Shown piece after piece: positions 4,377 to 14,102 of a stretch of DNA of 48,131 nucleotides. The DNA lies in the NCBI GenBank assembly GCA_028714475.1, contig JAQTNC010000010.1, positions 1-48,131 on the forward strand, in the 5' to 3' direction. This DNA comes from Patescibacteria group bacterium. Lineage in GTDB: Bacteria; Patescibacteriota; Patescibacteriia; SG8-24. The notes beneath the pieces are model-generated. The model did no database searches, had not been told where the DNA came from, and worked only from the letters and a program-made list of their open reading frames with translations. The translations under genes were made by a program, and so were the position numbers. How positions within the stretch are numbered: the first letter of the stretch is position 1; the number at the start of each line of letters is the position of its first letter.

Positions 4377-4462
4377 AAATATCTTGAAATTCGGCGGAAA
4401 ATGGTTAAAATAAGGTGGATAGCTTAAGGGGCCCTTATTACCCGATTGTTCGATCGCAGAGC

Positions 4463-4619
4463 GGAGAGGTGCTCGAGTGGTTTAAGAGGACGGTCTTGAA
4501 AACCGTCGACCCGCAAGGGTGAGTCGCGAGTCAACGAGCGATTCACGGGTGCCAAAGGGCACCCTGGATTTCGCGAGCGTCTCCCATTCTTCGCGAGCGA
4601 AACCGTGAGTTCTCCGCCA
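4463..4619 (+). pseudogene. tRNA-Ser(UGA)-like gene interrupted in the variable arm by an 82-nt element; T-arm truncated
   Basis: GGAGAGGTGCTCGAGTGGTTTAAGAGGACGGTCTTGAAAACCGTCGACCCGCAAGGGT (4463-4520), element 4521-4602, then ccgtgagttc-tccgcca (4603-4619). Confidence 0.6.
4521..4602 (+). repeat. Three-hairpin structured element, copy A (inside tRNA-Ser-like sequence)
   Basis: Stem1 GAGTCGC/GCGATTC, stem2 GGGTGCC/GGCACCC, stem3 TTTCGC/GCGAAA; same architecture as copy B with different stem sequences. Confidence 0.6.
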
Positions 4620-4647
4620 CCGTTATTTAATAAGTCAATCGCAGAGC

Positions 4648-4760
4648 GGAGAGGTGGCCGAGTGGGTCGATTGCGAGTTGGCGAGCAATCGACGGGTCGC
4701 ATCGGCGACCCGGGGTTTGCCGAGCGATTTCCTATAATACGCGAGGCAAACTAAGGCAGC
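4648..4760 (+). pseudogene. tRNA-Ser-like 5' fragment interrupted in the D-loop by a second copy of the element
   Basis: GGAGAGGTGGCCGAGTGG (4648-4665), insert, then CTAAGGC, which would restore the D-stem (GCC/GGC). Confidence 0.5.
4667..4750 (+). repeat. Three-hairpin structured element, copy B
   Basis: Stem1 TCGATTGC/GCAATCGA, stem2 GGGTCGC/GCGACCC, stem3 TTTGCC/GGCAAA; loops GAGTnnnnGA-type and GAGCG...CGCGA as in copy A. Confidence 0.6.
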
Positions 4761-4778: not shown

Positions 4779-4866
4779 GGAGGGGTGCTCGAGTGGTTTA
4801 AGAGGACGGTCTTGAAAACCGTTGACCAGAAATGGTCCGTGGGTTCGAATCCCACCCCCTCCGCCA
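4779..4866 (+). tRNA. tRNA-Ser (anticodon UGA), CCA encoded
   Basis: GGAGGGG acceptor pairs CCCCTCC; anticodon arm ACGGT-CTTGAAA-ACCGT; long variable arm GACCAGAAATGGTC; T-arm GTGGGTTCGAATCCCAC; ends GCCA. Confidence 0.95.
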
Positions 4867-4874
4867 TGCCAATA

Positions 4875-4923
4875 AACCGTCGATCCGAAAGGATCCGTGA
4901 GTTCAAATCTCACCCTCTCCGCT
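4875..4923 (+). pseudogene. 3' half of a tRNA-Ser gene (anticodon 3' stem to acceptor)
   Basis: ACCGTCGATCCGAAAGGATCCGTGAGTTCAAATCTCACCCTCTCCGCT; its CCTCTCC acceptor matches the GGAGAGG 5' fragments at 4463 and 4648. Confidence 0.6.
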
Positions 4924-5019
4924 CCGCGATTGAATCAGGGCTAAGGCGGACCAGCCGTAGGCTGGGAATCTCACCCTCTCCGCTGCGGCATAGAAATTAG
5001 AAAGGGCGAACCGCCGCGT

Positions 5020-12867: not shown

Positions 12868-13007
12868 GATAAAGGACTCCGTTTTTTGGCGAAGGCCGAC
12901 AAATCGGCTGAAAGGGCTATTTGTGAGAGTCTAGCACGTGGGCCGGACAGCCTCAATAGGATGCGAGAGATTGACTAATAATGCGGTATAATAGCCAAGC
13001 CTCACCT

Positions 13008-13271
13008 ATGTCCCGCTGGTTCGTCTATCTTGTACGTTGTCGCGACGGCAGCCTTTACGCGGGTGTGACGACGGATTTGGCGGTGCGGGTTCGGGAGCAC
13101 AACTCCGGACGGGGCGCAAAATATACCCGCTCACGGCGACCGGTGAAGCTCGTTTGGTCGGTTTCGGCGTCGAACCGTTCGGCGGCCCTGCGCCGCGAGG
13201 CCGCCATCAAGCGCCTGCCGCGTCCTGAAAAAATGGCTTTGTGCGCCAAGGCGCGGAAAACCAAGATTTAG
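13008..13271 (+). CDS. GIY-YIG nuclease family protein (UPF0213/YhbQ-like)
   Basis: MSRWFVYLVRCRDGSLYAGVTTDLAVRVREHNSGRGAKYTRSRRPVKLVW. Confidence 0.92.
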   Translation: MSRWFVYLVRCRDGSLYAGVTTDLAVRVREHNSGRGAKYTRSRRPVKLVWSVSASNRSAALRREAAIKRLPRPEKMALCAKARKTKI

Positions 13272-14024: not shown

Positions 14025-14102
14025 GCGCCCGTAGCTCAGCCTGGATAGAGCGCTTCCCTGCGGAGGAAGAGGTCGCACGTTCAAATCGTGCCGGGCGCAC
14101 CA
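14025..14102 (+). tRNA. tRNA-Arg (anticodon GCG), CCA encoded
   Basis: GCGCCCG/CGGGCGC acceptor; anticodon arm CTTCC-CTGCGGA-GGAAG; T-arm GCACGTTCAAATCGTGC; ACCA end. Confidence 0.93.

Follow-up and report, generated by a model that had tools for sequence, protein, structure and literature searches.

Why do two small structured elements lie within fragments of a serine tRNA gene, shortly upstream of an intact copy of that gene? The window, a 48,131-nucleotide stretch of DNA (contig JAQTNC010000010.1), comes from a Patescibacteria genome of 1.41 Mb in 43 contigs (GCA_028714475.1; G000 below, where labels beginning with G and L stand for the genomes and loci of our analysis). A first-pass annotation, made from the sequence alone, described two elements (A and B) with one three-hairpin layout inside tRNA-Ser-like genes. 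A covariance model (R1) finds both of them. We propose that they descend from a conserved RNA that precedes tRNA genes.

Two elements within truncated tRNA-Ser copies

The features of the region, all on the forward strand, are:

4384..4411, +, promoter-like TTGAAA-16-TAAAAT, the closest such site upstream of the entire tRNA-Ser array (candidate from a consensus scan, 10/12 matches)
4463..4516, +, truncated tRNA-Ser copy A, nt 1–54, from the acceptor 5' strand to the variable arm (BLAST)
4517..4604, +, element A (hairpin 1, 4519–4546; hairpin 2, 4547–4564; hairpin 3, 4566–4604)
4605..4621, +, rest of tRNA-Ser copy A, with the start of the T-stem fused to the acceptor end and the T-loop lost (sequence)
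4648..4665, +, copy B, tRNA-Ser nt 1–18, up to the GG of the D-loop (sequence); it takes the place of the tRNA mimic in the canonical family layout
4664..4752, +, element B (hairpin 1, 4666–4693; hairpin 2, 4694–4711; hairpin 3, 4714–4751)
4779..4866, +, intact tRNA-Ser(tga) (ARAGORN; Rfam tRNA, 59.5 bits)
4875..4923, +, truncated 3' part of tRNA-Ser: variable arm, T-arm, and acceptor 3' strand (repeat search and sequence)
4941..4984, +, second truncated 3' part of tRNA-Ser (sequence)

Element A scores 85 bits with R1 and 75 bits with R3, a model from leaders only (see below) that was built without the copies from G000; element B scores 103.5 and 74 bits. The stems are as first described. In both elements, hairpin 1 has a GA/GA arrangement behind its stem, hairpin 2 is plain and has a loop of 4 nt, and in hairpin 3 there is a second GA/GA step between its outer helix and an inner GCG/CGC helix (the inner helix is our addition). 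Both elements fold better than all 200 of their dinucleotide shuffles (z = -3.9 for A and -5.0 for B).

The annotation placed A in the variable arm and B in the D-loop of tRNA-Ser-like genes. A lies at the junction of the variable arm and the T-stem and B in the D-loop, and both hosts are truncated copies of tRNA-Ser. Copy A is 92.6% identical to the intact tRNA-Ser(tga) over 54 nt, and the BLAST match stops at the element. The tRNA sequence of copy B stops soon after the D-stem, and the first GG of element B is shared with the GG of the D-loop, so the two features overlap. As a side observation, the acceptor strand CCTCTCC of the two truncated 3' parts pairs with GGAGAGG of copies A and B, not with GGAGGGG of the intact gene.

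As the annotation had supposed, the elements belong to no named family: searches of Rfam 15, at gathering and permissive thresholds, gave no match at the elements; the only hits were to tRNA and, away from the elements, to a group I intron in L026. A similarity search of G000 found further copies on many contigs, and R1 gives 24 in all. That the stems of A and B differ with pairing kept is not chance. Across 19 of the 24 copies, which could be aligned almost without gaps, 97.4% of cells are paired, versus 78.5% if the 3' letters are shuffled and 30–41% if partners are slid. Both sides have changed at 19 of 26 pairs, and the covariation score is 0.535 versus 0.175 for shuffled alignments.

The description of the elements as a tRNA-targeting repeat also holds. 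Tracts derived from tRNA lie within 150 nt of 11 of the 24 copies (one was identified by eye), with about 0.3 expected (binomial, 4e-15). The sites are the D-loop after the GG (in tRNAs for Ser, Leu, and Gln), the junction of variable arm and T-stem (Ser and Leu), and, in antisense, the T-loop region (Pro, Val, and Met). One copy of tRNA-Leu contains two elements (L029/L037). The host tRNA copy resumes 2–4 nt past the GG; the corresponding intact tRNA gene is nearby. The remaining copies, about half, are outside of tRNA-derived sequence, either within other repeats or beside terminator-like hairpins. The other dispersed repeats that hold copies include GTAGCGGCG...CGCCGCTAC (L035, L040, L046, L047), GCAGCCGCTGGACGGG... 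(L028, L030, L038), and GTGCGGAGCACAC... (L031, L043); the last of these also occurs beside tRNA-Ser(gct) (L024).

A leader of tRNA genes across Patescibacteria

Among 57 relatives of G000, one genome (G008) has 13 matches. At L061 of that genome, one element sits within hairpin 2 of a second, which is itself in the D-loop of a tRNA-Gln, so the element does insert. The single or double matches in six other genomes (G002, G007, G009, G020, G027, and G044) all adjoin an intact tRNA and come with a partial copy of that tRNA. We then have two models with different training sets: R2, trained mostly on dispersed copies, gave at least 15 further loci across 381 genomes of the class, with no more than 11 candidates scored in each, and R3, from leaders only, gave four more across 38 genomes. 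The annotation had suggested such a search for hits near tRNA genes. At 19 of 19 further loci outside of the copy-rich G000 and G008, the element adjoins a tRNA gene, mostly for Ser or Leu, which in nearly every case is the directly downstream gene on the same strand. R3 finds all 24 copies in G000 (E = 5e-9 to 1e-17; the E-values of these home-made models are rough, and the genomes are MAGs). Because a model from leaders only recovers every copy in G000, the leader and dispersed forms are one family. Its prevalence is modest, with R3 matches in 8 of 38 genomes of the class, G000 included. The leader at L184 of G007 recurs at L209.

Independently of the models, we scanned 84,980 GTDB species with a motif drawn from the leader's 3' end. 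This gave 37 sites on 36 stretches. A tRNA on the same strand starts within 200 nt at 29 of the 37 sites (binomial, ~1e-61, with a rough expectation of 0.45%), typically 28–37 nt from the start of the motif. R2 matches most of these loci. The motif contains the U-run, whose presence at these loci is not independent evidence. Nearly all of the stretches are labelled as Patescibacteria groups (Uhr-, Moran-, Yanofsky-, Buchanan-, Kerfeld-, Colwell-, and Berkelbacteria, among others), and we found no genuine family member in IMG/VR viral contigs or phage records. The family and its position before tRNA genes are well supported. This home in front of intact tRNA genes is outside of the window's genome, where the first-pass annotation could not see it.

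The leader begins with a copy of tRNA nt 1–18, which ends in GAGTGG. This is followed by hairpin 1 (with GA/GA), hairpin 2, a complement of about nt 8–18 of the copy, and a U-run. Beyond the U-run are GAYCGAGGC..TGCCGAG, 5–15 nt, and then the intact tRNA. In tRNA-Leu leaders, the copy is nt 1–10, with GAGTGG at nt 5–10. The period of the leader is usually 107–121 nt. Over nt 1–18, the copy matches the local tRNA at about 97% of positions, versus 20–75% just outside on either side; its edges are sharp, at nt 1 and after the GG.

In hairpin 1 of the leaders, 96.9% of cells are paired and both sides have changed at all eight pairs; in hairpin 2, 91.3% of cells are paired (as judged on alignment A4; the MAFFT alignment, A3, puts hairpin 2 out of register). 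In leader stems, G-U outnumbers A-C by 25 to 2, much as in the tRNA stems of G000 (22 to 1), and this speaks for selection on an RNA rather than on a DNA hairpin. In the stems of the G000 copies, the counts are 14 and 4, which do not decide between the two. The outer stem of hairpin 3 showed no covariation in leaders.

Each complement suits its own copy: pairing is -12.2 kcal/mol with the copy at the same locus versus -9.5 kcal/mol with those at other loci, and none of 20,000 permutations did as well (p < 5e-5). The helix of copy and complement is present in 24 of 28 minimum-energy folds, with its 3' end near the U-run or running into it, and closes a three-way junction directly before the U-run. 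(L198, L203, L206, and L209 have no such helix.) We also noticed a variant in the tRNA-Gln leaders L186 and L184 (from G009 and G007): hairpin 1 is longer, the sequence of its stem (GTCGTCC/GGACGAC) is a repeat from tRNA-Gln, and the helix of copy and complement is absent.

The tRNA-Cys leaders L189 and L193 are orthologous, with the same upstream sequence and the same next tRNA. Three pairs of hairpin 1 have changed on both sides between them, and their tRNA copies are identical. In G007 and G009, the tRNA-Gln leaders likewise show compensatory changes with the tRNA copy unchanged. The leader is a vertically inherited structure that is under selection as RNA. Upstream of the copy, there are clear promoters at several tRNA-Leu loci (11/12 consensus matches; p = 0.0017 over all loci). 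The gap between the element and the tRNA is too short for a promoter, so the leader is necessarily transcribed together with the tRNA.

Proposed role and alternatives

We propose that A and B are dispersed copies of a conserved family of tRNA-leader RNAs, probably an attenuator, which in this lineage turned into a dispersed and nested repeat with a preference for tRNA loops; we give this a probability of roughly 0.5. The helix of copy and complement before the U-run resembles an intrinsic terminator that is made from the tRNA's own 5' sequence. Given this geometry, a predicted terminator or pause at the U-run would attenuate, or kinetically gate, the synthesis of the downstream tRNA. In the lineages of G000 and G008, a self-contained hairpin 3 would have taken the complement's place. 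Once hairpin 3 paired with itself, the tRNA copy would no longer have been needed, and the element may have been freed to spread. Around element B, the canonical order is kept (tRNA-Ser nt 1–18, the element, and the intact tRNA-Ser(tga)); A would be a later insertion into a second tRNA-Ser copy upstream. None of the dispersed copies has a complement, and in both A and B a self-paired hairpin 3 stands in place of the complement and the U-run. Because the window copies lack the complement, the present function of A and B is uncertain.

The same parts might work in another way: the complement could lock up the extra 5' copy, so that it does not compete with the real 5' end as the tRNA folds. Neither gating nor locking accounts for nt 1–7 of the copy staying identical. 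We also considered a bolder version of our proposal, in which free tRNA or cleaved tRNA 5' fragments, whose sequence is that of the copy, compete for the complement and cause read-through, and loss of or damage to the tRNA leads to more tRNA. This would be the first RNA-based control of the transcription of tRNA genes, and we consider it unlikely. No antiterminator was evident in the leaders; GAGGC..TGCCGAG after the U-run could form a stem, which has no covariation support.

T-box riboswitches and the leaders of amino-acid operons are cis-acting leader attenuators. Like them, the family has a structured 5' leader, a terminator-like helix before a U-run, and sequence that is tied to one tRNA. 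Unlike them, it lies ahead of tRNA genes and includes a duplicate of the 5' end of the tRNA itself. The element is not a T-box: no T-box model matches it, and it precedes tRNA genes, not amino-acid genes. We know of no conserved cis-acting RNA in front of tRNA genes that repeats the 5' sequence of the tRNA behind it, and a literature search of open-access text found none. If the leader is an attenuator, then these very reduced and mostly uncultured bacteria would control their tRNA supply at the RNA level. The expansion to 24 copies offers a chance to trace how a functional RNA becomes a dispersed repeat, and it yields covariance models for further searches.

The family might instead be a purely selfish, non-autonomous element that inserts after GG in hairpin loops and prefers tRNA genes. 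The tRNA 5' copy would then be a target-site duplication that spares the host tRNA, and the RNA structure would serve the element or the folding of host transcripts. This is possible, if somewhat unlikely. It would explain why there are so many copies in G000 (24) and G008 (13), why elements are nested at L061 and paired within one tRNA-Leu, why copies in D-loops and variable arms follow the GG of the tRNA with 2–4 nt lost, and why there are antisense copies in T-loops and copies in non-tRNA contexts. Also, some tRNA copies run 10–13 nt into the leader, as target duplications might. However, the copy in leaders has a sharp end at tRNA nt 1 and is nearly identical to the local tRNA despite a diverged hairpin 1. 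The fixed spacing, and the vertical inheritance of orthologous leaders at one site with compensatory change, also seem inconsistent with a selfish element. Furthermore, we found no match to Y1 (HUH) transposases (PF01797) in G000 and none to reverse transcriptases (PF00078) in G000 or G008. So the "tiny mobile RNA" of the first-pass annotation is borne out by the dispersal and the nesting, but not by a mobilising enzyme.

Mobilisation of the IS200/IS605 or REP/RAYT kind was rejected because G000 has no PF01797 match. Retrotransposition, by a group II intron or another retroelement, was rejected because PF00078 has no match in G000 or G008. Integron attC sites and the ends of group II introns were compared by eye and set aside; the order of GTT and AAC is wrong, and the flanks do not rejoin. 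REP/BIME sequences with their RAYT are dispersed hairpins in intergenic DNA. The element likewise forms dispersed hairpins, but it covaries internally and is focused on tRNAs, and G000 has no Y1 transposase match. Rickettsia palindromic elements are palindromic repeats that insert in genes; the family here is a conserved leader RNA with several hairpins. The double-hairpin and repetitive hairpin-forming elements reported from mitochondrial genomes (PMC2800124) resemble the element in being small, GC-rich, multi-hairpin, and dispersed. Unlike those, the family here is bacterial, has three hairpins with GA/GA, and has a vertically conserved tRNA-leader form.

Another possibility is that the elements are a by-product of GIY-YIG homing endonucleases that break conserved tRNA loops, with repair leaving tandem tRNA fragments and captured structured sequence. 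In this class, there is a tRNA nearby at 13 of 25 short GIY-YIG loci versus 0 of 5 uvrC-like loci, and tRNA fragments flank nearly every tRNA of G000. The cleavage motif of SegB from phage T6, RAWTSGAAC (PMC13096335), corresponds to the antisense T-loop, which is the site of some copies and of a second element, X (see below). SegB of T-even phages likewise targets tRNA loops and is associated with tandem tRNA segments (PMC13096335), but it acts on phage tRNA clusters, and there is no GIY-YIG gene at the element loci that we examined. The D-loop site lacks the SegB motif, and the conserved, covarying RNA and the helix of copy and complement would be left unexplained. As an origin for the family, we consider this quite unlikely. 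tRNA-linked GIY-YIG genes may account for the tRNA fragments and for element X. (The window has a GIY-YIG gene of 96 amino acids at 12981–13271; tRNA-Arg(gcg) follows about 0.75 kb downstream, at 14025.)

The annotation had also suggested an excisable insert. An insert that is removed from functional tRNA genes, like an intron or in some other way, would fit with copies in tRNA loops and with hosts that keep most of the cloverleaf (tRNA-Leu at L029/L037 and tRNA-Ser at L060). But joining the flanks leaves 2–4 nt of the D-loop or variable arm missing, which would not restore the tRNA; the window's hosts are otherwise truncated, with intact tRNA copies next door; several copies are antisense to the tRNA and cannot splice; and no Rfam intron matches at the elements. 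This makes excision very improbable. A group I intron in a tRNA was rejected on the same grounds, as there is no intron match at the elements and the flanks do not rejoin to a tRNA. Finally, an assembly artefact or chance hairpins might be suspected in a repetitive, GC-rich tRNA region of a fragmented 43-contig genome, but with the family recurring in independent assemblies of many Patescibacteria, and with covariation beyond all shuffles, the probability is negligible.

Other structured neighbours of tRNA genes in G000

Element X lies downstream of tRNA genes. An antisense T-loop (TCGAAC) is followed by GGGTCGTAAGCGAG or GGGCAGGAGCGAG, by hairpins, and by the 3' end of the same tRNA in sense orientation. 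Its loci in G000 are L041 (1154–1312 and 1486–1715), L026 (1403–1640), L087, L089, and L072. There are nine exact matches to the pattern; those that we examined are all just downstream of a tRNA. After tRNA-His, X is in tandem with a period of 206 nt.

At L079 (tRNA-Thr(ggt) of G000; -379 to +123), there are four upstream units of about 95 nt, each of which opens with tRNA nt 1–26. Downstream, a 3' part contains GGAAAAATGCGGGG, which is complementary to CCCCGCATTTTTCC of the upstream units, so the intact tRNA is enclosed by an outer tRNA-like frame. In L026 (1010–1246; G000:C2), ARAGORN missed a tRNA whose anticodon loop contains a group I intron (Rfam, 52.3 bits, just above the cut-off). And upstream of the tRNA-Asp of G000 (L081, -400 to -28), two tRNA-Asp-like copies have a plain hairpin (GGCCGCACTGCTGCGGCC) in place of the anticodon arm, with a GIY-YIG gene between them.
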